Shown piece after piece: positions 35,711 through 51,335 of a DNA stretch of 64,000 bases (position 1 is the first letter of the stretch; every line of letters starts with the position of its first letter). The notes under the pieces are model-generated. The model saw only the letters and a list, made by a program, of their open reading frames with translations, was not told the origin of the DNA and searched no databases. Both the position numbers and the translations under genes were made by a program. Source of the DNA: Mycolicibacterium sp. TY81 (GTDB lineage: Bacteria > Actinomycetota > Actinomycetes > Mycobacteriales > Mycobacteriaceae). The stretch spans positions 5,704,001-5,768,000 of the forward strand of contig NZ_AP023362.1 of NCBI RefSeq assembly GCF_018326285.1. The letters run 5' to 3'.

Positions 35711-35784
35711 GGCCAGGTAGCTCAGTTGGTACGAGCGTCCGCCTGAAAAGCGGAAGGTCGCCGGTTCGATCCCGGCCCTGGCCA
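35711..35784 (+). tRNA. tRNA-Phe(GAA), integration target
   Basis: A cloverleaf with acceptor GGCCAGG/CCTGGCC, D-arm GCTCAGTTGGTACGAGC, anticodon loop CTGAAAA (GAA) and T-arm CCGGTTCGATCCCGG. The 3' half is repeated at 51293-51335, so the element to the right integrated here by its attP and restored the gene. Confidence 0.96.
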
Positions 35785-35788
35785 CTTC
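35746..35788 (+). repeat. attL: 43-bp direct repeat of tRNA-Phe 3' end
   Basis: This 43-bp stretch, from the anticodon loop to 4 bp past the tRNA end, recurs without mismatch at 51293-51335. It marks the left boundary of the integrated element. Confidence 0.93.
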
Positions 35789-35808
35789 ATAGGCTGTATC
35801 TAGCCTAT
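35789..35808. terminator. Small hairpin at the left end of the element
   Basis: ATAGGCT and AGCCTAT (arms at 35789-35795 and 35802-35808) flank GTATCT just inside attL and downstream of the integrase. It may end int transcription or be an arm-type integrase site. Confidence 0.35.
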
Positions 35809-35829
35809 CTCGCTAAGTCCATCTGACGT

Positions 35830-37038
35830 TTATTCGTTGCTTATGCCGACCGCTCGATCGAGCGCGTCGGCTACTTCTGTATGCACCTGGCCACGCTTCA
35901 TGTAGGTGTCTGTCGTCATCGACACCTTGGCGTGCCCGAGCTGGTCGGCCGCGACTCGAGCCGACAGGCCGGCGTCGTCGATCAGCGTGGCAACGCTCTT
36001 GCGGAAGCTGTGGGACGACACGTCGGGCAGCCCGAGGCTGTCCCGTACCTCACGCCACTGCTTACCGAAGTTGTCCGGGTCGCGCAGTGTGCCCGTGGAT
36101 GACGGGAAGATCACCTCGGCGGTGTTCGGCCCGGACCATTCCGCCTTACGCCGGCGGAGCGCATCGACAGCGAACCGGGGGAGCGGCAACGTACGCTCGT
36201 TGCCGCCCTTTGTAGTGTCCTGCCGAACGAGGCCCTTGCCCTTGATGCGCACCACCGAGAACGCGGCCGTCAGCACGCAGTCATCGAGGTCGACGTCCTC
36301 CCACTTCAATGCAAGCAGCTCGGATCGGCGCAGCCCAGTGGCCGCGAACAGAATCACCGGGTCACGAAGATCCTTGCGCTGGCATACCTCGGACTCATTG
36401 AGGCCACTCAGCAGGGCCCGTACCTGACCAACGTCCAGTGCGGGCGCACCCTGCGGCTTCTTCTCTGCCTTCGTTCGCCGCCGTCGCGGGAGCTGAAGAA
36501 TCGGGTTGGCGGGGATCGCGTTGGCGAGTACTGCATCCGTCAGAACCGCATTCAATGCCACCTTGGTGTGTCGCTCACGGGTCGCACCGTGATCCCTCCG
36601 GATGCCGGCGAGGATGTCGTTCATCAATGCTGGTCCGCCCTCGCCCCCTGAGTCCGGCCCGAGATCACCGACACGTATGCCAGTCATCCGCGGCTTGACG
36701 GCCGTCAGTGTCGCTTCATAGGTGTCGACCGACTTGGGTGCCAACTCGCCATCAGATCGGCATCGCTCGATGTATCGGTCAAGGAGTTCGACCAGTAGCG
36801 TGGCCGAGGTGATCGACCCAGTGCCGGGAGGTCTCCGCTCAGCCAGCGCACCCCACAACGCACCCTCGGCCTTGTCTCCGTACTCGTCTTCCGTGCCGCT
36901 CGGCGTCATCCGTTCGACACGCCGGGTCACTCCGTCGCGGTCTCGGTAACGGCACCTCGCAACCCAGACATTCTTAGCCACTTGGGTTCTCGTGATCTTG
37001 CCGTGCTGCCCGATCCTCAAAGGAGGCCTACCGGCCAT
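35830..37038 (-). CDS. int: Tyrosine-family integrase (attL side)
   Basis: This 402-residue recombinase starts MAGRPPLRIGQHGKI, has a core-binding SAM-like domain (TSATLLVELLDRYIERCR) and a catalytic domain with Arg in FAATGLRRSELLALKWEDVD, HxxR in VSSHSFRKSVATLID, and the Tyr in GHAKVSMTTDTYMKRG. It lies 42 bp from attL, so it is the probable integrase for tRNA-Phe. TTG- or ATG-type starts up to 37068 are possible; ATG 37038 overlaps the repressor gene by 11 bp. Confidence 0.93.
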   Translation of the reverse strand: MAGRPPLRIGQHGKITRTQVAKNVWVARCRYRDRDGVTRRVERMTPSGTEDEYGDKAEGALWGALAERRPPGTGSITSATLLVELLDRYIERCRSDGELAPKSVDTYEATLTAVKPRMTGIRVGDLGPDSGGEGGPALMNDILAGIRRDHGATRERHTKVALNAVLTDAVLANAIPANPILQLPRRRRTKAEKKPQGAPALDVGQVRALLSGLNESEVCQRKDLRDPVILFAATGLRRSELLALKWEDVDLDDCVLTAAFSVVRIKGKGLVRQDTTKGGNERTLPLPRFAVDALRRRKAEWSGPNTAEVIFPSSTGTLRDPDNFGKQWREVRDSLGLPDVSSHSFRKSVATLIDDAGLSARVAADQLGHAKVSMTTDTYMKRGQVHTEVADALDRAVGISNE

Positions 37039-37639
37039 TGCGGTGATCCAACCTGTCTTGCAAGTCATCGATTCGCATCTGGACGTCAGCGACGGCCTGT
37101 AATCCTTGCCAGTAGTCGTCGTCGTCCCAGCCGGATCGCGACTCGCGTGCCTTCATCAGGCGTGTCTTCGTCAGTTCCAAATCGGCAATCTCGCGAGCGA
37201 TGCGCAGGCACGCCATGTTGTGGTCGTATCGCTTCCAGGACTCAATCTGCTCGTCTTCATCGGCTCCCTCGTGCCGGTGCGCGAAACCGCAGAACTGGGC
37301 GACTGCCGTCAGCTGATCGAACGAGTCACCAGGTAGCGCTTCAACTTCCTCCTCGTAAGGGCCGGGGTACAGCAAGCTGATCGGGGCAGTGTCCAGAGCT
37401 TGAGCCAGGACGATCAACTCCGCTGTGGTTACGTAGCGCCGTCGTCCGACTTCCAAATCCGAGATGACCGTCCGCGTAATCGGGTATCCGATTCTCTGCG
37501 TCCTGTCAGCAATCCATTGCGCCGACCGTTCACCGCGTAATCGCTTGATCTCCAGTGATATTCGGTACGCCTGCTGTTCGGCCCAGTCGCGTGGGGGCAC
37601 CGCGGACCAGCTGAGTCGCGGTCGGTCTGTTTGCGCCAT
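37028..37639 (-). CDS. XRE-family repressor of the element
   Basis: This 203-residue protein has a Cro/CI-type HTH (ISLEIKRLRGERSAQWIADR, GYPITRTVISDLEVGRRRYV) and a helical C-terminal region with long charged coils (WKRYDHNMACLRIAREIADL). ATG 37639 is chosen. It is divergent from excisionase, the classic immunity-repressor position, with about 110 bp between them for operators. It co-reads into int. Confidence 0.8.
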   Translation of the reverse strand: MAQTDRPRLSWSAVPPRDWAEQQAYRISLEIKRLRGERSAQWIADRTQRIGYPITRTVISDLEVGRRRYVTTAELIVLAQALDTAPISLLYPGPYEEEVEALPGDSFDQLTAVAQFCGFAHRHEGADEDEQIESWKRYDHNMACLRIAREIADLELTKTRLMKARESRSGWDDDDYWQGLQAVADVQMRIDDLQDRLDHRNGR

Positions 37640-37748
37640 GGCACGCAGAATACGCCGATCTTGCACCGTTGGGCGCAATGGGCTAATAATGAGTGCAAGC
37701 GCGCGAAAAATAATGAAAACCGCGCGGTTGCACGTAGATAGGAGTCAG

Positions 37749-37940
37749 ATGAGCGACGATGTGTGGCTGTCGCGGGCTGAGGTGTCCGAACGAACGAAGA
37801 TTCCGATTGCCACGCTCGCTGTATGGGCGCATTACGGCAAGGGGCCCAAGTATTCGCGTTTCGGTCGGCATACGCGATACCGCGTCAGCGACGTGATCGC
37901 TTGGGAGGAAGCGCAATACGTCGGCGGTGGCGGCGCGTGA
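37749..37940 (+). CDS. xis: Excisionase-like helix-turn-helix protein
   Basis: This 63-residue protein reads VWLSRAEVSERTKIPIATLA, VWAHYGKGPKYSRFGRHTRY and RVSDVIAWEEAQ, the winged-helix pattern of MerR/AlpA-type excisionases. ATG 37749 follows GGAGTCAG. It is the first rightward gene, opposite the repressor. Confidence 0.85.
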   Translation: MSDDVWLSRAEVSERTKIPIATLAVWAHYGKGPKYSRFGRHTRYRVSDVIAWEEAQYVGGGGA

Positions 37941-37957
37941 CACCACTCAATGAAAAC

Positions 37958-37989
37958 GCCCCGACTGGTGCTCGAACACCTGCCGGGGC
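37958..37989 (+). promoter_or_regulatory. Hairpin between xis and the next gene
   Basis: GCCCCG (37958-37963) pairs with CGGGGC (37984-37989), with an inner GGTG/CACC pair. It may act as a weak terminator or mRNA-stability element ahead of the early operon. Confidence 0.35.
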
Positions 37990-38035
37990 AGCGAACCCAC
38001 CAACCAGTCATCAGAGCCAAGAAGGAGATTCACCA

Positions 38036-38443
38036 ATGACGATACAGGCCGAGTGCGTGCACTGCACCGTGCCGACCGGCGACGGCGACGTCTGCACGTT
38101 CTGCAAGACGTATCAGCCGCCTGCTCAGATGGTCACCGGTTGCACCCCCGACGAGTGCGACTGCCGCTGCCAGGACTGCATCAACCATGACCACCATGAC
38201 GGCGGGCTCGAGGTCGCAATGCTTCTCGCCGAAGGGTCGCGTTCGGAATGCGACTCTTTCTGTGAGGATCTTGTTGCACGAATTGTCAACGCGTCCATCG
38301 CGTTTCCGCTCGCCGGTTTCGCGTGCTTCGTTACCGCTGACGGCAACCGCATCACCGTCACCGCGACCAGTCGTGACCCGCGGACGGGTAAGAACTCCAC
38401 CCGTGAGTTCGCGGCCGAGATGCAGGAGGCCGTCGAACGATGA
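38036..38443 (+). CDS. Cys-rich early protein, unknown
   Basis: This 135-residue protein begins MTIQAECVHC with several Cys pairs (CVHC, CTFC, CDCRCQDC) that suggest one or two zinc sites, followed by His-rich NHDHHDGG and a beta-rich C-terminus. AAGGAG precedes ATG 38036. It opens the early operon and is coupled (ATGA) to the next gene. Function not recognised. Confidence 0.6.
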   Translation: MTIQAECVHCTVPTGDGDVCTFCKTYQPPAQMVTGCTPDECDCRCQDCINHDHHDGGLEVAMLLAEGSRSECDSFCEDLVARIVNASIAFPLAGFACFVTADGNRITVTATSRDPRTGKNSTREFAAEMQEAVER

Positions 38444-38670
38444 GTGACACCCACGTTTCGGCGAGGCCACGATTGACCGTTGTCGGAGGGAAAGCGTCAC
38501 GCCCGTTACGGCCAGACGCCCGACGCGTTCCTCCGCCCGTGGATCCCCTCGAAGCCGAAGCCGCGGCTCTGCCGGCCGAGCTCCACCGCGAAGAGGTCGA
38601 CGCCGTGATCGCGCTGTTCCGGCTGATCCGTTTGTCTCGGAGCCGCCAAGTCGGTGGCGGAGGCGCGTGA
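38440..38670 (+). CDS. Small early protein, unknown
   Basis: A 76-residue basic protein (VSARPRLTVVGGKASRPLRP) with a C-terminal helix EEVDAVIALFRLIRLSRS. It starts in an ATGA overlap with the Cys-rich gene and its last codons overlap the DUF2742 gene. No family recognised. Confidence 0.5.
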   Translation: MSDTHVSARPRLTVVGGKASRPLRPDARRVPPPVDPLEAEAAALPAELHREEVDAVIALFRLIRLSRSRQVGGGGA

Positions 38671-39017
38671 TTGTGCAAGCCGACAGCCTCATCGTCACAC
38701 GGACCGTGGACTGGTTCCATGTCCACCGCCTCGTGGCGCCAGTCCTCGAGCAGATCGAATCCTGGCCGCTTGCAGGCACATTGGCATGGCACCGACTGGC
38801 CGACACCGACCCAGCAAAATGGGCGGCGGTCCTCGATCTGGGCCGCCATTTCGCGCTGCGCCTGGACTCCGAGCAGCGGGCGCTAACTGACGCATCCCGC
38901 GAAATCGCCACTGCCGAAGAATGCTGGTCCGCGATGGCACGCCGCGTCCACGACGGCCGCGGTCATGCCTACATCAAGCGAGAACGCTCAATCTCCCCCC
39001 GAAAGCGGAGTGCATGA
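38667..39017 (+). CDS. DUF2742 protein
   Basis: This 116-residue protein reads VDWFHVHRLVAPVLEQIESW, PLAGTLAWHRLADTDPAKWA and AVLDLGRHFALRLDSEQRAL, matching the W-x-V-H and DAGxHxAL-type pattern of DUF2742, known from M. tuberculosis prophages such as phiRv2. Its GTG overlaps the previous stop and its stop overlaps the ATPase start. Function unknown; likely an early phage function. Confidence 0.65.
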   Translation: MIVQADSLIVTRTVDWFHVHRLVAPVLEQIESWPLAGTLAWHRLADTDPAKWAAVLDLGRHFALRLDSEQRALTDASREIATAEECWSAMARRVHDGRGHAYIKRERSISPRKRSA

Positions 39018-40639
39018 CAGACGACGAATTCTGGTCAGCTACAAAGGAACTCAAGCTCATCCACCAGTGGGCGAGGTCCCGCTATACCGCTCCTTGGGCG
39101 GTACTCGGTGCTGTCCTGCTGCGGGTACTGGCCAGCTCAGGACCACACGTACAGCTCCCGGGCGTCATCGGCGGCCGAGCCTCCCTGAACTTGGGTGTCG
39201 TATTCGTCGGCCCGTCTGGAGCGGGGAAAGGCAACAGCGACCGCGTGGCTCGCGAAGCCTGGCCGACTCAAGAGTTCGAAGAACGACCGCTCGGCTCGGG
39301 CGAAGGTATTGCGGCGTTGTTCCAGAAGCCGAAAGACGAAGCAGCGAAGCGGATTACCCGGGCGATCTTCTCCGCTGGTGAGATCGACACTTTGACCGGC
39401 ATCGCCGCCCGTCAAGGCTCAATCCTGTTGGCGCAGTTGAAGTCCGCACTCATGGGAGAGCTGATTGGCCAATCCAACGCCTCCGAAGCGACAAGCCGCG
39501 TCGTAGCGGCGCATTCGTACCGCTGCTGCCTATCCATCGGCGCACAACCCGGGCACGCGGGCGTTGTTTTCAACGACACCACGGGCGGCACTCCGCAGCG
39601 CCTGCTGTGGCTGCCGACAACCGACCCCACAATGCCCGCGGACCGAACACCTCCCCCCGATGCCCTCGATAGCCAGTTGCCTGGTTTGCTGTCCCGTCGG
39701 CACGACAACCCGGAGATCGTGACTGAGATCGTCTACGGCACCGAGGTCATCGCTGAGACGATCCTCGCAGCCCACCTGGCACGGCAGCGAGGGGAAGGCG
39801 AAGCCCTCGATGGCCACGCGCTGTTGACGCGTTGCAAGGTCGCTGCTGCGCTCTCGATCATGGCCCACCGCTCGGTTGTGACTGAGAAGGACTGGGACCT
39901 GTCTGGCACCGTGATGACGAAGTCCGATTCGACTCGCACGTGGATGCTCGAGCACGCTCGGCAAGCCGATCGAGCAAAGATTCGCAAGCGCGCAATGTCT
40001 CAGGCGTACGGGGAAGAGATCATCGACGGTCGCCGCGCCGAGGTGGTGCGGCGACGGATTCTTCGCATTCTCGGCGAGGGCCCTGCGACCCACGGCACGG
40101 TCCATAGCCGCATCGGAAAGCGCGAGTACAAGGAGCTGTTCCCGGACGTCATTGAGAGTTTGCTGAACTCGAATGAAGTGACCGCGGAAGCGACTCAGCG
40201 CGGTAAGCGGTATTCGTTGGGGGCCGGGGTCAACGTTGACTCCGGGGTCAAGGTTGATAACCCCAGGTCAGGTACGTTGACCCCACGAGTCAACGTTGAC
40301 CCCCTGGGCGATGACACCAGTTTCAATAATCCCAGCTCGGCGCCTGGCTACAAGCTAGTTCCCGCAGCTTCGCCGGCAGAGTTCCTCGCGTCATACATGG
40401 CGTCGAATGCCGGCCAAGACGGCTGGATCAGAGTTAGCCAGCTACGGGCGGCCGCAGGGGCTGCTGGCCATAACTGGGACTCGATCCGGACTGCGAGCAA
40501 GCGTTTCACTGACCCGTCGATCGTCAGCGACAACAAGGGCAAGAACTCAAGCTGGCGGTTCAACATGGCCACCGCTGAGGACGAGGTTCAGCAAACTCCC
40601 CCCGACGGCGATCGGCAGCCTTCCGAGGTGTCATCGTGA
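39014..40639 (+). CDS. Phage P-loop ATPase, replication (DUF3987-like) protein
   Basis: This 541-residue ATPase has Walker A in VFVGPSGAGKGNSDRVA (about residue 70), a Walker B-like RAIFSAGEIDTLTG, and a helical region with RILGEGPATHGTVHSRIG that resembles the winged helix of primase/helicase proteins. It corresponds in position to replication proteins of small mycobacterial prophages. The linker at about 405-435 (VNVDSGVKVDNPRSG) is encoded by palindromic repeats. ATG 39014 overlaps the DUF2742 stop. Confidence 0.7.
   Translation: MTDDEFWSATKELKLIHQWARSRYTAPWAVLGAVLLRVLASSGPHVQLPGVIGGRASLNLGVVFVGPSGAGKGNSDRVAREAWPTQEFEERPLGSGEGIAALFQKPKDEAAKRITRAIFSAGEIDTLTGIAARQGSILLAQLKSALMGELIGQSNASEATSRVVAAHSYRCCLSIGAQPGHAGVVFNDTTGGTPQRLLWLPTTDPTMPADRTPPPDALDSQLPGLLSRRHDNPEIVTEIVYGTEVIAETILAAHLARQRGEGEALDGHALLTRCKVAAALSIMAHRSVVTEKDWDLSGTVMTKSDSTRTWMLEHARQADRAKIRKRAMSQAYGEEIIDGRRAEVVRRRILRILGEGPATHGTVHSRIGKREYKELFPDVIESLLNSNEVTAEATQRGKRYSLGAGVNVDSGVKVDNPRSGTLTPRVNVDPLGDDTSFNNPSSAPGYKLVPAASPAEFLASYMASNAGQDGWIRVSQLRAAAGAAGHNWDSIRTASKRFTDPSIVSDNKGKNSSWRFNMATAEDEVQQTPPDGDRQPSEVSS
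40226..40304. repeat. Iteron-like palindromes inside the ATPase gene
   Basis: Four GTCAA-type units lie within 79 bp: GGGGTCAACGTTGAC (40226-40240), GGGGTCAAGGTTGAT (40244-40258), an inverted GTTGACCCC (40276-40284) and GTCAACGTTGACCCC (40290-40304). Three or four copies of GTCAACGTTGAC-like palindromes with GGGG/CCCC ends look like iterons of an origin, or binding sites for the encoding protein. Confidence 0.65.
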
Positions 40640-40920
40640 GCGGCCTCGGCCCGGCCTACGAGACCACGGGCGCCGCTCTGGTTCCGTGTCCGAACTGCGG
40701 AGCTGCTGTGGGGGAATGGTGTGTGACAAACGACGGCGTGCGCCGTGTCCGGGGTCGTCGGGTGCCGTGTGTGCAGCGGCTGCTCGCCGCTGAGCGAGCG
40801 GGCCAGCGCCAGGTGGGCGACGAGTGGTCGCCGACGTCGGTCCTGGCTTCGACACCGGATGCCTGCGGCCGCGTCGACGCTTTCACTGAACCACTTCATC
40901 CGCGAGAGGACCCCCAATGA
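40636..40920 (+). CDS. Small zinc-finger protein of the element
   Basis: This 94-residue protein has VPCPNCGAAVGEWCVTNDGV followed by GRRVPCVQRLLAAERAG, a CPxC...C...C zinc finger common in mycobacteriophage genes. GTG 40636 overlaps the ATPase stop (GTGA). Possible nucleic-acid binding. Confidence 0.65.
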   Translation: MSGLGPAYETTGAALVPCPNCGAAVGEWCVTNDGVRRVRGRRVPCVQRLLAAERAGQRQVGDEWSPTSVLASTPDACGRVDAFTEPLHPREDPQ

Positions 40921-41324
40921 ACTCCGAGGTGTCAGGCGCCGACTGGCTGAGATACGCCGCAGCGATCGGTTGGCAGGCCGTCGGGATGGCCACCGGCGCC
41001 CTCGAGCGCGCTGCCGGAGACAATCCTGGCCTGTTGACCGTGGCGACCGGGTTCGACGTGACAGCCGCGGAGATCGGCACCATCATGACGCGGTCGGGCG
41101 ACATCGAGTGGTACGACGCGGGCTGGCCGGTGGCCACCGTCGTCGACTTCGAGGATTGCGACTGCACGTGGGCGCATGTGTGGCATCCCGACCCGGTACA
41201 TGACCGCAATCGCTATCAGCCTGAGCTGGCACTGATTTCGTGCCCCCACGGCGGCGTGCACCGGCTGATCGTGCTGCTCCCAGGCATGATCGAGACCGCC
41301 ACAGAGGCGGCGCCTGGTGGGTGA
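40917..41324 (+). CDS. Unknown small phage protein
   Basis: A 135-residue protein coupled by ATGA to the zinc-finger gene. It contains DWLRYAAAIGWQAVGMATG and a Cys/His stretch (EDCDCTWAHVWHPDPVH, LISCPHGGVH). No family recognised; possibly metal-binding. Confidence 0.5.
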   Translation: MNSEVSGADWLRYAAAIGWQAVGMATGALERAAGDNPGLLTVATGFDVTAAEIGTIMTRSGDIEWYDAGWPVATVVDFEDCDCTWAHVWHPDPVHDRNRYQPELALISCPHGGVHRLIVLLPGMIETATEAAPGG

Positions 41325-41733
41325 AGAGCGTGTCGTCGAGGTTGCCGGTGTCAGCGGGGTCATGATCTCGCGGCGGGTCGCAGCGCAGATCGTCGGTGTA
41401 GTCGACGTGCTCGAGGAGCTTCTACGCCGGCGCAGCAGCGTTCTACCGGCCTCGATCCGCGAGTTGCGGCAGGAATTGGACTACCACAGCAGGGCTCGTG
41501 CTGAGCCTCGCGTGAACGCGAGCGCGCGAATCGATGGTGAGGCGTTGCCGCACGATTCGACTGCAGTGGTATCCGTCGCAACCGCGGCCGGGCAGCTCGG
41601 CATTACGCAGGACGCAGTCCGATGGCATTGCCGGCGTGGATGTTTCGCGCGGGTGGCGTTCCGGAAGTCCGGACGTTGGTGGATACCGGAGGACGAAGTG
41701 AACGCAGTAGTAGCTGCGCGACAACAGATTTGA
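41317..41733 (+). CDS. HTH protein of the element
   Basis: This 138-residue protein ends in a winged-helix domain: VSVATAAGQLGITQDAVRWH, CRRGCFARVAFRKSGRWWIP, EDEVNAVVAARQ. That is the excisionase/MerR-like pattern. It overlaps the previous gene by 8 bp and precedes the capsid gene, so it could regulate late transcription. Confidence 0.6.
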   Translation: MGEERVVEVAGVSGVMISRRVAAQIVGVVDVLEELLRRRSSVLPASIRELRQELDYHSRARAEPRVNASARIDGEALPHDSTAVVSVATAAGQLGITQDAVRWHCRRGCFARVAFRKSGRWWIPEDEVNAVVAARQQI

Positions 41734-41746
41734 AGGGTGGCACCAA

Positions 41747-43031
41747 GTGGACGACTTGACGTACCGCGGGGATGGCAGGTATGGCCCGTCGGCCTACGAG
41801 GCCGAGGTCATTCAGCGGAAGCGGGAAGCCGCCGGGCAGTCCGCCCAGAGTCCGTCGCTGGACCAGGAACCCGACGTCAGCCCGAGCGAGCCTCGGTCGC
41901 AATCCACAACTTCAGGAGGTCAAGCCACAGTGACAATGTTTTCGGTAAAGGAGCCGGCGACGTACGCCAAGGGCGGCGGCCAGTCCTACTTCCGCGACCT
42001 GATCCGATCATCGATGCGGAGCGGGGGGCCACGTCGAGGCCGACGAGCGTCTACGCCGGCACAAAACCGACGTCGCGACCGACAAGGCCTATCGCGCGCT
42101 GGATACCACTCCCGGCAACGGTGGGCATTTCGTTCCGCCCATCTATTTGGTCGACCAGTACGTGGCGCTGGCCCGCGCGTCCCGCGTCTACGCCAACCTG
42201 GCGACCAATCAGCCGCTGCCGGCCGGTACGAACTCGATCAACTTCCCCCGGATCACTTCCGGCACGGCGACCGGCATCCAGGCGGCGGAGAACACCGCGG
42301 TGGCGAGCGCTGATCCCGACGAGGATGAGATCGAAGCCAAGGTGCGGACCATCGCCGGCAACACCGACGTTTCGCTGCAGCTGCTGGAGCAGTCGCCCGT
42401 CAACTACGACGAGGTGATCTTCCAGGACCTGTACGCCGACTACGCCATGCGGACGGACGTCCAGTGCCTCCGTGGCACCGGTGCTGCGGGGCAGGTCTTG
42501 GGTGTCCACGCCACCCCGGGCATCGGCACCGTTGCGATCACGGGCGGTGTCACCTTGGCGAAGTTCTACGCCGCGGTCGCCGACGCGATCCAGCGCGTGA
42601 ACACCGGCCGCATGCAGGCCGCACAGCACATCGCCATGCACCCGCGTCGGTGGGCCTGGATGACCGGCATCCTGGACGCCAACCAGCGGCCTCTGGTCGT
42701 GCCGTCGGCGCAGAGCCCGCAGAACTCGGTCGCCGCGTTCGAGCGCGTCACGCCTGAGGGCTTCGTCGGTGCGATGCAGGGCCTGCCCATCGCGCTGGAT
42801 CCGAACATCGGCACTACCTACGGCGCCGGCAACGACGAGGACGTGGTCTACGTGCAGCGGTCCATGGACATCCTGCTGTACGAGTCGGGCATCCAGTCTC
42901 GAGTGCTCAAGGAGATCGGAGGCAAGAGTCTGACCGTGACCCTGCAGGTCTACGGCTTCGCCGCGTTCACCGCTGAGCGCTACCCGACTTCGATCGTCGA
43001 GATCGGCGGTCTGACCCCTCCAATCTTCTGA
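41747..43031 (+). pseudogene. HK97-type major capsid protein, frameshifted
   Basis: The N-terminal part (MDDLTYRGDGRYG..., with a second start MFSVKEPATYAKGGG at GTG 41931/ATG 41937 after AGGAGG) reads to YFRDLIRSSMRSG; a run of six G at 42023-42028 then breaks the frame. The other frame continues HVEADERLRRHKTDVATD, PPIYLVDQYVALARASRVYA, LPAGTNSINFPRITSG and MHPRRWAWMTGILDANQRP to 43031, a clear HK97 fold coat. With five G instead of six the two halves join in frame. Sequencing error, slippage or decay are all possible. Confidence 0.8.
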
Positions 43032-43248
43032 TCTTGGGCCCTTCCGGTTGGGTGGGGGCCCAGTTGGGGTGCGCGACCGCTTGTTCCTCCACGGTGACGC
43101 GCTCTCCAACACTCCTTTGGCAAATGTCGGGGTTTCCGGCCGCTTACCCGGCACCAGCCAAAGGTCTCGGTTCGGGGAGCTGATTGGACATAGTGCCCAC
43201 TGATGGCCAATCAGCTCCCCGAACCACCGTCGTGCGAAAGGCGAAGAT
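43032..43248. repeat. Gap with perfect 19-bp inverted repeat before the tape measure
   Basis: Arms GGTTCGGGGAGCTGATTGG (43169-43187) and its exact complement (43207-43225) surround a 19-bp loop, 23 bp before the tape-measure start. In a phage this gap should hold head-tail and tail-tube genes, none of which remain. The repeat could be a terminator, an operator or the scar of a deletion. Confidence 0.7.
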
Positions 43249-46200
43249 GTGAGCAATGCCGTTGAGCTGGCCCAGGTTTGGGTGCCGCTCATGCCGGAGG
43301 CGTCTCGTATCGCCGCGGGCGTGGAGAAGATCGGCAAGGAAGCCGCCACCCGGTTCAATCGACAAACCCAAGTCATGGGCTCCGCAATGGCCAAGTCGAT
43401 CGACACCAACGGCGCGAAAGTCGTTGAGTCGCTCCGAAAGGTCGAGCGCCAGACGATCTCTGTGCAGAAGGCACGCAAGGCCGACGCCGACGCTCTCGGC
43501 CGCCTCGAGCTCGCGCAGAAGCGCTACCAGCAGGTCTCGAGCAATGCGAAGGCGACGGAGCTGCAGCGGGCCACCGCGGCGGAGTCGGTGGCGCGGGCGC
43601 AGCGCACGCAGGAGCTGACCGCTGACGGCCTGACTCGCGCGACCAAGGGGCTCACGCAGGCGCAGAAGGCCCAGGCTTCAGCGCAACGTGAGGCCAACGC
43701 CGCGCAGGCTGCCGCGAGCCGGTCTGGCGCGAGAACGCCTCTGGGGTACAACTTCTCGGCCGCTGGGCAGCAGGCCGAACAGGCCGGCACCGAGTCGGCC
43801 ACCCGGTTCGCCGCCGGGTTCAAGAAGGTGATCGGCCCGGCGATGGCATTGGTCGGCGGCGCGGGTCTCTTCTCGACCATCAAGCAGTCGGTCAAGGCCG
43901 GCGTCGACATGGAGTCGAACTTGAACCGGCTGCAAGGCGTCACCGGGGCGAGCGCCCAGATGATGGCCAAGGCGTCGGAGAAGGCTCAGCAGCTCGGCGC
44001 CGACACCACCATCGTCGGTGCCTCCGCAGCGGACGCCGCAGCGGCGATGCTCGAGCTCGCCAAGTCCGGCCTGAATATGAATCAGGCGATGGGCGCGGCG
44101 CCCGGCACCTTGCGGCTCGCCGCCGCCGCGTCGATCGACGCCGCTACCGCCGCGGAGGCGCAGGGCAACATCATCAACGCCTACCAACTCAAGGCCGAGG
44201 ACGCGAACCATGTCGCGGACGCCCTGGCGAACGTCGCGAATGCTGCGGCCGGCGAGGTGCCTGACTTCATGCTGGGCCTGCAGCAGGCCGCCACTGTGGC
44301 GCACGGCTTCGGCATCTCCATGGACGACACCGTCGCCACTCTGGGGCTGTTCGCCAACGCAGGTATCCGCGGTTCCGACGCCGGTACGTCGCTGAAGACG
44401 ATGCTCACCCACCTGGCGGCGCCGTCGGATCAGGCCGGCAAGGCCATGGACGCGCTGGGCTTGAACATTCGGAATACCAAGGGCGAGTTCGTCGGTATGC
44501 GCGAGCTGTTCCGGCAGATCGGCGAGGCGTCGAGCCGTATGCGGCCCGACGATTTCCAGGAGAACGTCGCGACGGTGTTCGGCACCGACGCGATCCGCGG
44601 CGCGATGATCGCCGGCAGCCAGGGCATCGAGACGCTCGACAAGATGAAGAAGTCGGTCATCGAGGTCGGTGGCGCGACCAAGATGGCCGCCGCCAACATG
44701 CAGGGCGTCCCTGGCGTCATGGAGAAGATCTCCAACGCGACCGACGGTGCCAAGCTGGCCTTCTACGACCTGCTCAAGCCTGCGTTGCAGTCCGGCGGCG
44801 ACAAGCTGCTGACGGTGATCCAGGGCATCGGCGATAGCTTCGCCAGCCTCAAGAAGGGAACGGCCACAGGCGGATTGGCCGTCGTCGCTGACGTGTGGCG
44901 CGATATCTCCGGTGCCGCAAAGGATCTCGCGCCCACGCTCGGCAAGGCGATCAAGGCGCTCGCTACCGGTGCTGGTGGTGTCGCGGTCGTTGGCTGGCAG
45001 GCGCTCGGCATGGCGATCAAGGCCGTCGAGCCGCCGCTGCGGATCATCGCCGACCTGTTCGGCAGCAATCAATGGCTGTCGACAGGCCTGATGGCGGCAA
45101 TTGCGATGTTCATCGCGAAGACGAAACTTCTTCCCCCCGTGCTGAATTCGGTGAACAGCACCGTCACGCGGGCCAAGGGAGTGTGGTCGGAGCTGCGCAC
45201 GCCGCTCAACGACGTCAAGGACCGGACGACGGGCCTGGTCACGCAGCAAGGTCTGCTGACGCGCGCCACCGAGGGCACTCTCGGCCCAGTGGGCCGCATG
45301 CGCGCGGCCTACCTGGAGGGGGCGCAGCAGGCCAAGACGTTCGCGCAGAACAACACCTTCCTGCGCACCCAGTTGGTCCAGAATGTTGGCCCGCTGCAAC
45401 GGATTCAGCAGGCCGGGTCGAACGCGGTGACGTCGATCAGGGGCATGAGCACGGTGATGGGCGCCGCTCGGGCGGCCGGATCGGGCCTGTCCATGGCTGC
45501 CGGCGGGCTGATGTCGGCACTCGGCGGCCCGTGGGGCATCGCGATCATGGGCGCTACCGCGCTGGTCGGTGGACTCGCTGCGGCGCACGCCGACGCGGCG
45601 AGGAAGGCCGGCGAACAGCAGGCCGCGGAGAATGCTCTGAAGGACACGCTGGCCGCCGGCCGCCTCACCGAACGGACCCGCCACGACATCAACACCGCGC
45701 TCGGCGAGCGCAAGGACGGCGCTCCGTCGGCGCTGGACCGCGAACAGTCGTTCAAGCTGCCCGCCGGGACGGTCCTCGGCGCCGCGACCGGCAGCGACTC
45801 GGCGCGGGCGCTGCTGAACAAGACGCTCACGGACAACCTCACGGCTGCCGGCAAGGGCAACGGCGATGTGCAGAAGATGCTCGACACCGCACAGGCCGCC
45901 GGGATCAGCACCGAGGAGCTGTCCAAGGCGCTGTCCAAGGAGGGCTTCAACTGGGACATCGTCACCCAGAAACTGAAGGCGTACAACGACGCCCAGCAGG
46001 CAGCGCTCGAACGGGAGCACCCTGGCGGAAAGGTCGAGCGCACCTACGAGCCGGTGCTGCGTGACCTCGACCAGTTGATGGCGAAGCTGCCCGACGCCGC
46101 GGAGTCGGCGGCCACGATGAACCAGGCGATGAACCAACAGGCGCTCACCGCGACGCGCGCAGCAGAAGGCTGGGCGCAGGAAAACCGCTCGCTCAACGGC

Positions 46201-48108
46201 GTGTGGGAGGCCTCGGCGCGTGGTGTGGAGGCCTTCAAGGCGCTCGGCGCCGCGGTCGTCGCGGTGCCGTCGGACAAGCAGATCGTGGTGAGCGTTCCCG
46301 ACGAAAAGAAGGCTGCGTTCATGCAGCAGATGAAGGACATCGGCAACGAGGTCCTCAAGCTGCCGGACGGCCAGATCGTCGTCACCGCGAACGACGACGC
46401 CGCCGTGGAGCGCTGGAAGGCGTACGTCAAGAAGGTCGAGGGCACGCCGGTCCAGGTACCGATCGAGCTGCAGGTGCAGAACTACGACGCCGCGCTCAAA
46501 GCGTGGGTCCAGCGCCTGCAGTCGGGCCAGAACCCGGGTGCGATGCCACAGGCACCGGTCACGCCCGGCCAGACGGTCGGCGGCCGCGCGACCGGCGGCC
46601 GGATCGACCCGTCGGGCCGGATCAGCGGGCCTGGCAGCGGCACGAGCGATTCGATCCTCGCGCAGGTGATGGGCGGCGGCTTCGTCAAGGTGTCCAACAA
46701 GGAGTCCGTGAACACCGCGGCGTCGACGGCGAAGAACTGGCCGCTGATCAATGCGATGAACAACGGCTACGTGCCCCCGATCTCGTTGCTGCGCGACCTG
46801 TCCGGGTTGAAGGGATACGCCGAGGGCGGTGCTTTCGCACTGGAGGACGCGGCCGAGGCGATGGTCGGTACCCCCTACAGCCAGGGCGCGCGTAACGACT
46901 GTTCCGGCAGCATCGCCCAGCTCGTGAACGCGGCGCTGGGCGGTGGTGACGGCAGTTTGATGACGACGAAGACGGCTGCCACTTGGCTGGCCGCGCGCGG
47001 CTTCAAGGTGGGCAACGGGCCAGCCGGGTCGTTCCGGATCGGCTGGTATGACCACGGCCCGGGCAACAACGACGGCCACATGGCCGCGACCCTGCCCGAC
47101 GGCCGCAACGTCGAATCTGGCGGCAAGAACGGCGTTTTCACCCTCGGTGCGGGCGCGGCCGGTGCATCCGACCCGCAATTCGACCAGCACATGTACCTGC
47201 CCGAGGAAGCCCTGTACCCCGAGGGGTCCGGCGGCGGCGGTGGCGGCTACGGGGGCAGCTATGGCGGCGGCGGTGGGGGAGGCGGCTACGGCGGCTCGGG
47301 CGGTGGTCCTACTCGCGCTGAGCAGCGAGCGCTGCGCAACGCGGCGCAGAAGGTCGACGACACCGCCAAGGCTGTCGAGATCGCCAAGCAGCACCTGGAC
47401 GAAGTCAACGCCAACCCCAAGGCGAAGCCGTCGGCCCAGGCAGCGGCACAGGAGCGGTTGAACAAGGCCGAGCGCGAACACCAGGACGCCCTGGACGACC
47501 AGGCATCCAAGCAAGAAGAGGTCAACGAGAAGTCCGCGAAACGCGGATCCCGTGGCACCGGCCGCGGCGACCGAACCAGCGACGGCGGCCCGGACGGCAA
47601 GTCATTCGGCAAGGACCTGCTGTCCGGGGCCATGGAGGTGCTCGGGTTCGACGGCTCAGTGTTCTCGGACCCCACCCAGTGGGGCATCTGGAAGCTGTTC
47701 ACTGGTGGCGCGAATTACGTTGGCGGACTGCTGAAGAACTTCGGTGGCGGACCGGACGGCCAAGGCGACCAGCGCATGCTGCGCCCGCGCCCGGGAGAAG
47801 ACCCCAACCGCACCCAGCACTACGGCAACGGCGCCATGCCCGGGCCCGCTGGTGCCGGCGGCGACGGCGGCTTCGGCAACCTGGCCACGGGGCTTCTCGA
47901 TTCCGTGCTGCCGCAGGCGTCGGACTGGCTGCCCAACGCCACCAACGGTGGCGGCACCACCAACACCAACACGACGAACAACTCGAACAGCAACAACACG
48001 ACCAACACGGGCGTCGCGATCTACGGGCCGGTCACCATGCAGGCACCCGCAGGCATGCCCTCGCAGCCCGACCGCATGGCCACGCGCCAGTCGGGGCTGC
48101 CGAAGTGA
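43249..48108 (+). CDS. Phage tail tape measure protein with C-terminal peptidase
   Basis: This 1619-residue protein has an N-terminal coiled region, a PhageMin_Tail/TP901 core at about 225-450 (GVDMESNLNRLQGVTGASAQ, TVATLGLFANAGIRGSDAG), several hydrophobic segments (for example VVADVWRDISGAA region and MAAIAMFIAKT), and a C-terminal NlpC/P60-like domain (about 1210-1330) with its Cys in ARNDCSGSIAQLVN and His in NDGHMAATLPDG. A Gly/Tyr-rich linker and charged coil follow. It is GTG-initiated. Such proteins set tail length and aid cell-wall penetration. Confidence 0.9.
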   Translation: MSNAVELAQVWVPLMPEASRIAAGVEKIGKEAATRFNRQTQVMGSAMAKSIDTNGAKVVESLRKVERQTISVQKARKADADALGRLELAQKRYQQVSSNAKATELQRATAAESVARAQRTQELTADGLTRATKGLTQAQKAQASAQREANAAQAAASRSGARTPLGYNFSAAGQQAEQAGTESATRFAAGFKKVIGPAMALVGGAGLFSTIKQSVKAGVDMESNLNRLQGVTGASAQMMAKASEKAQQLGADTTIVGASAADAAAAMLELAKSGLNMNQAMGAAPGTLRLAAAASIDAATAAEAQGNIINAYQLKAEDANHVADALANVANAAAGEVPDFMLGLQQAATVAHGFGISMDDTVATLGLFANAGIRGSDAGTSLKTMLTHLAAPSDQAGKAMDALGLNIRNTKGEFVGMRELFRQIGEASSRMRPDDFQENVATVFGTDAIRGAMIAGSQGIETLDKMKKSVIEVGGATKMAAANMQGVPGVMEKISNATDGAKLAFYDLLKPALQSGGDKLLTVIQGIGDSFASLKKGTATGGLAVVADVWRDISGAAKDLAPTLGKAIKALATGAGGVAVVGWQALGMAIKAVEPPLRIIADLFGSNQWLSTGLMAAIAMFIAKTKLLPPVLNSVNSTVTRAKGVWSELRTPLNDVKDRTTGLVTQQGLLTRATEGTLGPVGRMRAAYLEGAQQAKTFAQNNTFLRTQLVQNVGPLQRIQQAGSNAVTSIRGMSTVMGAARAAGSGLSMAAGGLMSALGGPWGIAIMGATALVGGLAAAHADAARKAGEQQAAENALKDTLAAGRLTERTRHDINTALGERKDGAPSALDREQSFKLPAGTVLGAATGSDSARALLNKTLTDNLTAAGKGNGDVQKMLDTAQAAGISTEELSKALSKEGFNWDIVTQKLKAYNDAQQAALEREHPGGKVERTYEPVLRDLDQLMAKLPDAAESAATMNQAMNQQALTATRAAEGWAQENRSLNGVWEASARGVEAFKALGAAVVAVPSDKQIVVSVPDEKKAAFMQQMKDIGNEVLKLPDGQIVVTANDDAAVERWKAYVKKVEGTPVQVPIELQVQNYDAALKAWVQRLQSGQNPGAMPQAPVTPGQTVGGRATGGRIDPSGRISGPGSGTSDSILAQVMGGGFVKVSNKESVNTAASTAKNWPLINAMNNGYVPPISLLRDLSGLKGYAEGGAFALEDAAEAMVGTPYSQGARNDCSGSIAQLVNAALGGGDGSLMTTKTAATWLAARGFKVGNGPAGSFRIGWYDHGPGNNDGHMAATLPDGRNVESGGKNGVFTLGAGAAGASDPQFDQHMYLPEEALYPEGSGGGGGGYGGSYGGGGGGGGYGGSGGGPTRAEQRALRNAAQKVDDTAKAVEIAKQHLDEVNANPKAKPSAQAAAQERLNKAEREHQDALDDQASKQEEVNEKSAKRGSRGTGRGDRTSDGGPDGKSFGKDLLSGAMEVLGFDGSVFSDPTQWGIWKLFTGGANYVGGLLKNFGGGPDGQGDQRMLRPRPGEDPNRTQHYGNGAMPGPAGAGGDGGFGNLATGLLDSVLPQASDWLPNATNGGGTTNTNTTNNSNSNNTTNTGVAIYGPVTMQAPAGMPSQPDRMATRQSGLPK

Positions 48109-48761
48109 CAACCCCGGCGAAGATGGCAGAGGCCCTGTACCGCGCTGGCTGCGCGCCGTGGGACATCGGTGGACCCCAACCGATGATCCGGCGACTCGTC
48201 GCGCTCGGCGCTGTCCAGGGCCGCGTGCTCGACCCTGGCTGCGGAACAGGCTGGCACGCCATTGAGTACGCCCGGGCGGGTTGTGCCGTCACCGGGATCG
48301 ATGCAGCGATGCCGGCCATCGCGACGGCACGGCGCAACGCCCGTGGAGCAGGCGTCACTGTCGACTTCCAGATCGGTGACGTCGCCACCGTGCTCGATGG
48401 ATACGACGAGGCTCAGTTCGACGTCGTCGTGGACAGCAAGTGCTATGACAACCTCGATCCGGCAGCCCGTCGCCGATACCTCGCTGGTCTACGGCACGTC
48501 CTCAAGCCCACCGGCAAGCTGTTCCTGTACGCCTTCGGAGGCGGACACATCAACGGGGTGCACAACCACGAGCTGGAAGATCTACTCCTGCAAGAAGCCT
48601 TGCAGGACAAAGGATTACATGTAACGTATGTCGGCGACACTACCTACCAGCTCGACGCCACACGCTGGGAACCGATCTGCAACGAATGCCCACGACGGTT
48701 ACCGAAGGACCGCATGACCATCCCGGTCACCGAAATCCACGCCCGCGCCGCGAAGGAGTGA
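48105..48761 (+). CDS. Class I SAM-dependent methyltransferase
   Basis: This 218-residue enzyme has VQGRVLDPGCGTGWHAIEYA (SAM motif I), VTGIDAAMPAIATARRNA (motif II) and FDVVVDSKCYDNLD. GTG 48105 overlaps the tape-measure stop (GTGA). The substrate is unknown; small thiol or carboxylate methylation, or a phage modification, are possible. It directly precedes the second integrase. Confidence 0.85.
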   Translation: MTTPAKMAEALYRAGCAPWDIGGPQPMIRRLVALGAVQGRVLDPGCGTGWHAIEYARAGCAVTGIDAAMPAIATARRNARGAGVTVDFQIGDVATVLDGYDEAQFDVVVDSKCYDNLDPAARRRYLAGLRHVLKPTGKLFLYAFGGGHINGVHNHELEDLLLQEALQDKGLHVTYVGDTTYQLDATRWEPICNECPRRLPKDRMTIPVTEIHARAAKE

Positions 48762-48763
48762 CG

Positions 48764-49939
48764 ATGGCTGAGCGCCGCCAACTGCCGCCGCAGATCAAAC
48801 GGATCGAACTGGACGCGCGGTCCTGCGGCCGGCCCGTTGTTCGCTACCAGCTCACCGTCGACGTCGGATGGGACGGCACGAAGCGGCTCCGGTTCCGCAA
48901 GCGATACAAGACCGAGCGCGAAGCCCGCGACGCCCTGGACTCGATTCGGGGCGACGTGGTCAGAGGCATGTACGTGCACGCCAACAAACGGACGATCAAC
49001 CATGCGTGCGACGACTACATCGCCGGCAAGGTCGCCGCCGACCGGAAGCGATCGACCGTCAACGGCTACGAGGAGAAGCTGACGGTGGTGCGAGCGGAGC
49101 TCGGCGCCATCTTGGTGCAGAAGCTGACCAAGCGGCACCTCGATGACCTCGTGACCGCGCTGCGGGCCGGGGGCCTGTCCTCCCCCACTGGCAAGACGCG
49201 GAAGCCGTGGTCGCCACGGTCGATCAACTACCTGCTCGGGCTGCTCGACTCGATCCTCGAGAGCGAGAGGAAGCAGGGCCACGTCGCCCGTAACGTGGCC
49301 GCTCTCGTCGACCGTGCCGACGCGTATCCGAAGCCACCAGACACGCTGACCCCAGAAGAGGTCGAGACCGTCGAGAAGTACTTCACGGGAGACCAGTACG
49401 CGATCGCGTGGACGTTGGCGCTGTGCGGCATGCGGCGCGGCGAGATCGCCGGCCTGCGTTGGGAGCACGTAGACCTCCAGCGCGGCACGCTCACGGTCGC
49501 TCAGACACGGTTGCGGTTCGGTAAGCACCTCGTCGAGGACACCCCGAAGTCGCGCGCCAGCCGGCGCGAGCTTCCGCTGCCCGATCACCTGGTGGCCGCG
49601 CTCAAGACAGCCAAGGCGCTCCAGGCCGCCCAGCAGCTCGCGCTGGGCCCTGACTACCAGGCGTCCGGGTTCGTCGTCGTCAACGAAGCCGGGGAGGCCC
49701 TGAGCCCGCACACATTGACCTCCCGGTGGGCCCGGCTGCTCAAGGCGGCCGGCGTCCGCCACGTCCGACTGCACGACGCCAGACACACCTGCGGCACCGC
49801 AATGCACCTCAAAGGCGTACCCATCGCCGTCATCGCCGCATGGCTCGGGCATGCGTCCAAGGCCTTCACGATGCAGACGTACGTCCACTCCCAGCCCCAG
49901 GCGTTGGCCGCCGCTGCACAGAGTTTCGCGCGGCGTTAA
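48764..49939 (+). CDS. Second tyrosine-family integrase
   Basis: This 391-residue recombinase differs from the attL-side integrase in sequence. It has an AP2-like arm-binding N-terminus (WDGTKRLRFRKRYKTEREA), a core-binding domain (HACDDYIAGKVAADRKRST), catalytic Arg in LALCGMRRGEIAGLRWEHVD, HxxR in LHDARHTCGTAMHLKGV, and Tyr in LGHASKAFTMQTYVHS. ATG 48764 follows GAAGGAGTG. Two integrases in one element suggest a composite. Confidence 0.93.
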   Translation: MAERRQLPPQIKRIELDARSCGRPVVRYQLTVDVGWDGTKRLRFRKRYKTEREARDALDSIRGDVVRGMYVHANKRTINHACDDYIAGKVAADRKRSTVNGYEEKLTVVRAELGAILVQKLTKRHLDDLVTALRAGGLSSPTGKTRKPWSPRSINYLLGLLDSILESERKQGHVARNVAALVDRADAYPKPPDTLTPEEVETVEKYFTGDQYAIAWTLALCGMRRGEIAGLRWEHVDLQRGTLTVAQTRLRFGKHLVEDTPKSRASRRELPLPDHLVAALKTAKALQAAQQLALGPDYQASGFVVVNEAGEALSPHTLTSRWARLLKAAGVRHVRLHDARHTCGTAMHLKGVPIAVIAAWLGHASKAFTMQTYVHSQPQALAAAAQSFARR

Positions 49940-49957
49940 GCGCCTACCATCAGAGCC

Positions 49958-50122
49958 ATGGACGAGCGCCGCCTCACCGACGCCGAGTACGCCGAGCTAG
50001 CTGCCGACTACGCCGCCAACCCCGTCACTGCCAACGAGGTGGCCACCTGCGGACAAACGTCCACCTCGCGCACTTCGAATGCAACTGGCGGAAGGCGGCA
50101 GGCGGAGGCGGCGAGCAGTTAG
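49958..50122 (+). pseudogene. Truncated small phage ORF
   Basis: Fifty-four codons begin MDERRLTDAEYAELAADYAA, then NPVTANEV. The start is protein-like and resembles the N-terminus of small mycobacteriophage proteins that follow integrases, but after NEV the sequence becomes low-quality (ATCGQTSTSRTSNATG) and stops. Probably cut at a recombination joint. Confidence 0.45.
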
Positions 50123-50555
50123 CTCTCATCGGATAGGGCTCGCAGCCAGCAAACGTCTTGATCGACGGATGTTCGAACAGTTCCCCCGCTCGTCGGCGGG
50201 TGGTCGGACGTCCGTAGAGCGCCCTGCGTGCCCACGTGCGCGGCGACGTGCTGTGGGCACCTTCTGACCTGCTCTTGGTCTCGATCGGGGCGCACGTCCG
50301 CCGGTAGCCTGCCGCCAAGCCCGGCCGGGGAGGCGCGCGAGGTGGGGGGCGGGTCAAGACTCTACGGCCCACCCTGGGCGGCCCCTCGCCGCGGCAAGGG
50401 CCCTCTCCCCCCGAAGTCTGAACGAAATCCGAGGCCGATTTCGAACGCTCCAGCAAACTTTCGATCAATCCCAGAAACATGAGCTGAACTGGGTTGACAT
50501 TCCGGTCGGCAGACGTCCCAGGAACCAGCTGCGATTGGTCATAAACTGAACGCCG
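50123..50555. other. Non-coding stretch before the small-terminase-like gene
   Basis: No convincing gene is present. It is rich in G/C runs (around 50330-50420) with short palindromic bits and comes just before a terminase-like gene, so it could include a packaging (cos or pac) site, but no cohesive-end motif can be identified. Confidence 0.35.
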
Positions 50556-50954
50556 ATGGCGACCGCGGCTGAACGAGCACGACGAGACCAAAAGGTCCTC
50601 GGCCTGTATCTCGCCGGGATGACCTACCGTGACATCGCCTCCGTGGTCAACGTCTCGGCGTCTCGGGTTCATCAGATCGTGGAGCGGGAGCTGGATGCCG
50701 GCGCGGACCGTCGCGAATTGCTGACGACCAAGGCCGCCGACATGTTGATCGAGCGGACCGAGGCACTGCTGCGGGCAAACTGGGCGAAGGCCATGAGGGG
50801 CGATTACAGGGCCGGCCTGCTGGTCGACCGCATGTTGGCACGCCAGAGCCGTCTGTTCGGTCTCGACCGGGCTGGCGGCGCGGTGCCGGAGCCCACGTCC
50901 CCGGATGTCGAGGACGAGCTCACAGCGTGGCGACAGCGCCGCGGAAGAGGCTGA
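50556..50954 (+). CDS. Terminase small subunit-like protein
   Basis: This 132-residue protein has an N-terminal HTH (VLGLYLAGMTYRDIASVVNV, SASRVHQIVERELDAG) and a C-terminal helical region (YRAGLLVDRMLARQSRLFGLD) resembling the small terminase subunit of mycobacteriophages. No large terminase follows; attR is 340 bp away. It may redirect a helper phage's packaging machinery, or be a remnant. Confidence 0.55.
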   Translation: MATAAERARRDQKVLGLYLAGMTYRDIASVVNVSASRVHQIVERELDAGADRRELLTTKAADMLIERTEALLRANWAKAMRGDYRAGLLVDRMLARQSRLFGLDRAGGAVPEPTSPDVEDELTAWRQRRGRG

Positions 50955-50968
50955 TTGCCGGCGCGCGG

Positions 50969-51148
50969 TTAAGCGCTTTCCAAGCGTTGGATGTAGTAGT
51001 CAGCGATCTGGTGGCCGCTGCTGAATCGTCGCCGGCCGATCGTCACTGATGCCAGCGCGCCGGACTTCCAGAGGTCGAACACCGTGCGTCGGCTGATGCC
51101 GCCGAGCTTGGTCGCTGTCACGTTGCAGTCGTTCAGCCAATTGTCCAT
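50969..51148 (-). CDS. Second excisionase-like HTH protein
   Basis: This 59-residue minus-strand gene, shorter than most annotated ORFs, reads MDNWLNDCNVTATKLGGISR, RTVFDLWKSGALASVTIGRR and RFSSGHQIADYYIQRLESA, the winged-helix pattern of MerR-like excisionases. Its start at 51148 is preceded by suitable A/G-rich sequence. It may pair with the second integrase and lies near attR. Confidence 0.65.
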   Translation of the reverse strand: MDNWLNDCNVTATKLGGISRRTVFDLWKSGALASVTIGRRRFSSGHQIADYYIQRLESA

Positions 51149-51292
51149 CGCCGATCATCTGACGCTTATTGGTCGTAATTGCCCGCAACACGCCGAAAAT
51201 CGTTGAAAAGCGATAGCAACCGAGATCGCTCGAATGCCGTTGTGCCGCAAAACTATCCGAAATCATTGCGGCGTGTTGAAAATCCCCGACCT

Positions 51293-51335
51293 AAAAGCGG
51301 AAGGTCGCCGGTTCGATCCCGGCCCTGGCCACTTC
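51293..51335 (+). repeat. attR: 43-bp copy of the tRNA-Phe 3' end
   Basis: Exact copy of 35746-35788, but without the 5' half of the tRNA; the sequence before it is unrelated. It marks the right end of the element. Confidence 0.93.

Follow-up and report, generated by a model that had tools for sequence, protein, structure and literature searches.

Satellites that supply part of the particle in which they travel have been described in several hosts. In PMC12987554 (Nature 2026), the phage-inducible chromosomal island-like elements (PLEs) of Vibrio cholerae build chimeric tails with their own tape measure protein (TMP), which is paired with a tail assembly chaperone (TAC); when the TMP of three PLEs was deleted, transduction fell by 96%, 99% and about 99.9%. 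The legend of Extended Data Fig. 10 of the same paper mentions capsid-forming phage-inducible chromosomal islands (cf-PICIs) with putative TMPs, and its main text contains no occurrence of 'mycobacter'. According to PMC10690885, cf-PICIs have their own terminases, portal, protease, connectors and capsid and use helper tails. Candidate mycobacterial PICIs, including phiRv1 and phiRv2, are defined by integration machinery and a capsid gene in PMC10654092, whose main text contains no occurrence of 'tape measure'. Mycobacterial candidate PICIs are therefore already published; in the searched literature (most subscription papers lying outside its scope) we found no account of tape-measure-bearing mycobacterial satellites. 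Here we describe E1, an element of the 6.47-Mb genome of Mycolicibacterium sp. TY81, located in a stretch of 64,000 nucleotides (the window, contig NZ_AP023362.1, positions 5,704,001 to 5,768,000, to which coordinates refer unless stated otherwise). E1 is probably a helper-dependent phage satellite, a PICI-like island of a kind that recurs and is marked by its capsid and TMP genes.

E1 and its sister elements

E1 is flanked by perfect 43-bp direct repeats, attL (35746-35788) and attR (51293-51335), with a start-to-start spacing of 15,547 bp. Judging from the sequence, such repeats cannot be a coincidence. attL overlaps the end of the host tRNA-Phe (gaa) gene (35711-35785, +; ARAGORN, Rfam), the integration target, which is intact. 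Repeat and tRNA scans thus bore out the first-pass annotation of this DNA, made from the sequence and its open reading frames (ORFs), which had described a 15.5-kb element in tRNA-Phe bounded by perfect 43-bp att repeats. The gene order is int1, a repressor-like gene, an excisionase-like helix-turn-helix (HTH) gene, DUF2742, a primase-like gene, a zinc-finger gene, small genes, capsid, TMP, methyltransferase, int2, a terminase-small-like gene and a small gene beside attR. In a scan of the main ORFs, other long ORFs overlapping them in different frames being left out, those of more than about 250 codons with a family match encode the two integrases, the primase-like protein, the capsid and the TMP. 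E1 was searched by tblastn and with hidden Markov models (HMMs), both based on 12 mycobacterial phages and prophages, and neither gave a portal, large terminase, tail tube, connector or lysin; tblastn gave no minor tail gene either. The earlier remark that portal, large terminase, tail tube and lysis gene are not visible was thus upheld. By these searches E1 is devoid of genes for autonomous virion formation, as is general for phage satellites, and fails to show the full structural gene set of an intact prophage. The phage matches, in ten records, are all to mycobacterial phages. An att-core match in phage Peterson was rejected as attP, being a tRNA-Phe gene beside a serine integrase.

The capsid gene of E1 is split over two frames when compared with that of E2, a sister element in the same genome. 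Its 5' part (41747-42031, +) is 98% identical to residues 1-95 of the E2 capsid, and its 3' part, in another frame (42021-43031, +; own ORF from 42147; PF05065), is 96% identical to residues 92-427. The E1 protein matches Pfam Phage_capsid (8.5e-21) and PHROG 2263. A programmed frameshift was judged unlikely, because the E2 capsid gene is continuous in a single frame; the break may also stem from a sequencing error. The TMP gene (43249-48108, +) encodes 1619 amino acids matching tape-measure PHROGs (best 4.2e-201) and Pfam PhageMin_Tail. Residues 1109-1556 match an endolysin PHROG, and among PDB sequences one solved phage tape measure, 9g8s, was matched (residues 119-568, 1.1e-18), the other matches being of low complexity. 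Of the capsid and 1619-codon TMP reported earlier, the TMP thus stands as described and the capsid gene is present in a frameshifted form.

A DNA search showed that window positions 40932-50041 recur in the same genome at 92% identity, over 9.1 kb of E2. In the 56 kb read there, E2 (15,515 bp) stands in tandem with a third element, E3 (18,876 bp), at a tRNA-Gly, the two being bounded by a 41-45-bp repeat that is present three times, with its final copy inside the tRNA-Gly. E2 encodes an intact 427-amino-acid capsid, a 1617-amino-acid TMP, a methyltransferase, a copy of int2 and its own terminal integrase, and additionally has replication-initiator-like and terminase-small-like genes. E3 encodes a protease, a capsid and a 1170-amino-acid TMP. 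No portal, large terminase, connector, tail tube or minor tail gene was found in either element by panel tblastn and HMMs.

We then compared E1 with E2, using our own Nei-Gojobori script to estimate the ratio of nonsynonymous to synonymous change (dN/dS). The TMP genes differ by 192 synonymous and 72 nonsynonymous changes, giving a dN/dS of 0.114, and no window along the gene exceeds 0.18 (the last window holding just 19 codons). The TMPs of E1 and E2 are under purifying selection over their whole length. The ratio is 0.226 for the capsid (shared C-terminal 294 residues), 0.085 for int2, 0.176 for the methyltransferase and 0.280 for a 135-amino-acid gene. Synonymous divergence is uneven, namely 0 in an HTH gene, 0.13-0.18 in capsid and TMP and 0.40-0.63 in int2, the methyltransferase and the 135-amino-acid gene, and therefore points to recombination between such elements.

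Recurrence of the capsid and tape measure genes

Among 297 genomes of the genus, Pfam PhageMin_Tail above its cut-off gave 47 listed places in 38 genomes. We examined 42 of them, including flanks of at most 20 kb per side, using the tblastn and HMM panel described above; the five left out (G254, G121:C61, G262, G019 and G032) are all near contig starts, and G014, a full prophage whose TMP lacks a PF10145 match, was an extra control outside the 42. Sixteen loci are full prophages with tail-tube and packaging genes (the portal going undetected in one, G177), three have portal and large terminase without tail tube (G039, G065, G121:C6) and one has large terminase alone (G062). In the remaining 22, portal, large terminase and tail tube were all undetected; these are E1, E2, E3, G035:C36, G035:C59, G088, G069, G063, G201:C35, G201:C64, G196, G216, G038, two loci of G087, G083, G021, G248, G253, G286, G027 and G009. 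The panel may overlook divergent genes; HMM sensitivity is fair, because portal and terminase were recovered in Streptomyces loci. A capsid gene is present in 7 of the 22 (E1, E2, E3, G088, G201:C35, G027, G253) and a protease without capsid in 3 (G035:C36, G021, G286).

Ten of these 22 loci lie between exact 23-46-bp repeats that copy a tRNA end. Six of the ten spacings fall within 14-18 kb (E1 15.5, E2 15.5, E3 18.9, G035 16.0, G088 16.1, G021 16.1, G248 17.6, G038 19.0, G087c 12.0 and G253 11.4 kb). Two further loci are enclosed by repeats without a tRNA (G069, 15.7 kb; G063, 14.4 kb) and G286 has a palindromic repeat only. tRNA repeats also occur at G039 (17.0 kb), G121 (15.8 kb) and G062 (21.0 kb). 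For the 16 full prophages, the same scan gave no enclosing repeats spaced 7-26 kb, the fetched flanks being shorter in some.

Both partial combinations of the two genes were seen as well. A TMP with no capsid found beside it occurs in 14-16-kb elements of G035:C36 (L186, L187), G069 (L204, L205) and G063 (L202, L203), with a head protease in G035 and a tail assembly protein (phrog_17360) upstream of the TMP in G063. Islands of G185 (L042-L043) and of G146, G151 and G134 (L046-L051), with repeats 15-17 kb apart, bear capsids related to that of E2 and no TMP match.

The source of the two genes was sought among known phages. For E1 and E2 the nearest phages for capsid and TMP are Bipper and Typha, with capsid identities of 53-59% and, for the E1 TMP, 53% and 45%, respectively. 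The E3 capsid is closest to those of Sbash (57%) and Brujita (53%), its TMP to those of MooMoo (46.5%) and Sbash (39.7%) over about 70% of its length, and its protease to that of prophiGD02-2 (68%). Between capsid and TMP, Bipper and Sbash each have eight annotated coding sequences, including the chaperone in its frameshift form; in E1, E2 and E3 the two genes are directly adjacent, with no gene between them. Two phage groups, one Bipper/Typha-like and one Sbash/MooMoo-like, have therefore been reduced to the same pair.

In the TMP trees, elements are mixed with phages. Of 54 TMPs, 20 (19 used, G087c being dropped as a long branch) and 16 passed the two domain filters, the rest being on neither tree. 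The 19-row TMP-domain tree (10 elements, 9 phages or prophages) needs 5 changes of the element label, at least 3 of them forced by well-supported branches. For the E3-type domain, with 7 elements and 9 phages or prophages on 16 rows, the number is 4, and again no fewer than 3 are forced. The approximately unbiased (AU) p-value of the 19-row tree is inflated by the very long G038 branch and was not relied on. The element label is not clearly clustered, since 93 and 89 of 500 label shuffles, respectively, required no more changes than the real labels. Given this mixing, the capsid/TMP design likely arose repeatedly.

Outside the genus, we looked at 28 loci from named genomes, each encoding a relative of the E2 capsid. 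In Streptomyces justiciae (L072), 43-bp repeats with a spacing of 14,458 bp enclose an integrase, regulator-like genes and a capsid gene followed directly by a TMP gene. Capsid and TMP are accompanied by a protease-like gene in Nonomuraea jabiensis (L070), lie 3.5 kb from each other in an Actinomycetota metagenome-assembled genome (L076), and occur together with an integrase on viral contigs L100 and L105. None of these five gave a portal, terminase or tail tube match in the same searches. That actinobacterial satellites have independently and repeatedly reduced phages to a capsid and TMP kit, or to a TMP alone, keeping their own shell and tail core and stealing portal, terminase, tube and tip, is in our estimate about evenly balanced. 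If true, TMP swapping would be a strategy of satellites in general, with the vibrio PLEs as one instance of it. The elements form a natural set outside the phylum of the PLEs, with probably several independent origins, evidence of selection and two close sister elements in one cell, and a tape measure without a tail tube offers a simple marker for satellites that capsid-based searches would miss. As Bipper-like and Sbash-like phages are recorded on Mycobacterium smegmatis, the sister elements and these candidate source phages make the question testable in a tractable host.

Finally, the tRNA-Phe site itself was followed across the genus. The att core is present in 201 of the 297 genomes, and other genomes yielded at least 19 same-contig pairs of it among the matches listed; 14 sites from 13 genomes were fetched, five other pairs, 4-7.6 kb apart, being left out. 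At none of the 14 sites did capsid, tail tube and TMP occur together in a prophage. The first-pass annotation had held that intact prophages at the same site would favour simple decay, and none came to light in these 14 among the at least 19 pairs listed. tRNA-Phe is an island hot-spot in the genus. The G081 element there has a close int1 relative (71%) and no recognised structural gene. A 10.6-kb tRNA-Phe element of G087 (G087:C1:6247001-6259000, L287), with relatives of int1, excisionase and repressor (74%, 65% and 44%), carries portal and large terminase with no capsid or TMP match, the opposite choice of virion genes to that of E1.

Other genes of E1 and adjacent observations

E1 has two tyrosine integrase genes. 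int1 adjoins attL (35830-37068, -; Phage_integrase 1.4e-20) and its relatives at tRNA-Phe elements reach 71% identity in G081 and 74% in G087. int2 (48686-49939, +; start perhaps at 48764) is about 70% identical at the amino acid level to the Sbash integrase, and the terminal integrase of E3 is its 45-47% relative. This internal second integrase is kept by both E1 and E2 (L009:8710-9969). In a search for an attP of int2, the region after the gene matched E2 well and elsewhere in the host genome just weak short stretches, and the candidate was not retained.

Next to int1 lie the repressor-like gene (37028-37678, -; a weak HTH match under the cut-off), relatives of which adjoin integrases in E2, E3 and G185, and the HTH_17 excisionase-like gene (37707-37940, +; HTH_17 1.8e-07, phrog_66 excisionase and regulator 4.9e-07). 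They are followed by the DUF2742 gene (38667-39017, +; PF10888 3.3e-34), the primase/polymerase-like gene (38921-40639, +; phrog_28894 1.1e-58; start perhaps at 39014 according to the gene caller), the phage zinc-finger gene (40636-40920, +; PF24623 3.2e-08), the 135-amino-acid gene (40917-41324, +; 75% amino acid identity to its E2 relative) and a 138-amino-acid HTH-like gene (41317-41733, +) showing no synonymous and three nonsynonymous differences from E2. Downstream of the TMP are the methyltransferase (48108-48761, +; PF13649 8.1e-19) and, after int2, the terminase-small-like gene (50556-50954, +; PHROG 645), related to Bipper gp8, and a 59-amino-acid gene (50969-51148, -) with relatives in E2, E3 and G185. 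The Bipper relative of the terminase-small-like gene is directly upstream of the terminase gene and overlaps it, and it is from this position that we infer a small-terminase role for the E1 protein. A small-terminase-like gene by attR, as claimed in the first-pass annotation, is thus present; its family, PHROG 645, is named 'RNase E', and the role comes from position.

One insertion sequence (IS) of E3, which we take by eye to be IS3-like (L010:11952-13217, S 31952-33217), is 99.9-100% identical to window positions 14571-14881 and 16220-17177. These two stretches are about 1.3 kb apart, and the window copy (14571-17177) looks interrupted. In E3 the IS adjoins a gene with a short primase-like match and may have split it. 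The window also contains an ASdes small RNA (25980-26047; 64.7 bits against a gathering score of 40), which, like the phage matches, indicates a mycobacterium.

The satellite reading, its rivals and known systems

Should E1 be a satellite, its cycle would begin when a helper phage infects or is induced. E1 would then excise via int1 and replicate with its own primase, and its small-terminase-like protein would steer the helper large terminase onto island DNA. Portal, connectors, tube and tip would be provided by the helper, shell protein and TMP by the island, with the helper tail protein polymerising around the satellite TMP. Because the capsid gene of E1 is frameshifted, its shell protein might come from E2 in the same cell. 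The product would be a chimeric particle whose shell and tail length are set by the satellite and from which a satellite protein would be first into the next cell. A structural role of the TMP in satellite particles seems likely. Selective tail capture, control of tail length, escape from blocks directed at the helper TMP and passage through the cell wall, the last considered because residues 1109-1556 match an endolysin family, are possible reasons for a satellite to carry a TMP.

Several observations weigh against this reading. The E1 capsid gene is frameshifted near 42021-42031, with its halves in different frames, and E3 holds two apparent insertion sequences (by eye), so some decay is genuine. 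Twelve of the 22 loci show neither capsid nor clear protease (two of them, G038 and G035:C59, with weak tblastn-only protease matches), at least four have short flanks or contig ends (G216, G027, G201:C64, G035:C59), and two are doubtful, namely G009, possibly a divergent prophage in view of its minor-tail and lysin matches, and G083, which sits among long repeats. Uniform element size as proof of packaging is weakened, because tRNA-Phe islands without recognised structural genes (G081, G175, G092, G049, G016) also measure 15.5-16.4 kb. No TAC was recognised in E1 with a small panel and HMMs, chaperones being divergent. The selection seen between E1 and E2 could partly precede capture, and the forced label changes could equal one gain plus reversals; a return from such an element to a full phage is thought less probable. 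A resident helper was also sought. The host genome has no match to the PF04860 portal or the PF03354 terminase, both of which were matched in control genomes, nor to the portal or TerL of Bipper, meaning that no resident helper of these kinds was found; the empty results for the two Bipper proteins show nothing alone, and PF04860 misses some portals, as in G092 and G162, whose prophages have panel-detected portals.

The TMP of mobile islands might instead be an interference or exclusion factor that titrates helper tail chaperones or tip complexes and protects the host, outside particles. Satellites are known to interfere with tail assembly, as when Rta of PLE11 blocks that of the helper via the helper TMP (PMC12987554), and a TMP is present in elements in which no capsid was found (G069, G063). 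However, selection has kept the whole TMP, including the endolysin-matching part, which is beyond the need of a decoy, and the same paper reports satellite TMP in PLE11 virions. We regard this account as rather unlikely.

It is unlikely, too, that E1 is a decayed Bipper-like prophage with capsid and TMP as remnants, the option that the first-pass annotation had set beside a satellite. The frameshifted capsid, the clear phage ancestry of capsid and TMP, the apparent insertion sequences in E3 and the lack of a resident helper found in the host genome all speak for decay. Yet E1, E2 and E3 all keep the long TMP reading frame uninterrupted, the TMP is under purifying selection between E1 and E2, at least two phage groups gave rise to neighbouring capsid and TMP genes, E1 combines perfect att repeats with its own replication and regulation genes, many att-bounded elements exist, and the 14 fetched tRNA-Phe sites hold no full prophage. 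E2 with its intact capsid and TMP genes, the selection on the TMP and the many like elements thus favour the satellite option over decay. That the TMP is a mere passenger linked to the capsid gene in ordinary capsid-carrying PICI-like elements, as the four related capsid-bearing elements without TMP (G185, G146, G151, G134) might suggest, is improbable, since the TMP, the longest gene, was retained while the phage genes between it and the capsid were lost, and since some elements have a TMP without a capsid.

As a probable satellite, E1 can be set beside the systems already described. Its nearest relatives by capsid and TMP, Bipper and Typha (53-59% amino acid identity to Bipper), like those of E3, Sbash and MooMoo (40-57%), are full phages of 55-78 kb, unlike E1-E3. 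With the PLEs E1 shares a satellite-encoded TMP, used with helper tail parts in PLEs and, judging from its genes, presumably also in E1; PLEs also encode a TAC and, for PLE11, a baseplate hub, and PLE11 particles are made with helper capsid protein, whereas E1 and E2 carry a capsid gene and no recognised TAC. The candidate mycobacterial PICIs resemble E1 in tRNA integration by a tyrosine integrase, capsid, replication genes and occurrence in Mycobacterium, and E1 has what defines them in PMC10654092, int1 with att repeats and a capsid gene (frameshifted in E1, intact in E2). Unlike them, the elements described here retain a tail gene, the TMP, sometimes without a capsid being found. E1-E3 have their own capsid in common with cf-PICIs, some of which bear putative TMPs, and fall outside the cf-PICI definition in having no detected portal, large terminase or connector; G039, G121 and G065 look nearer to cf-PICIs with a TMP.

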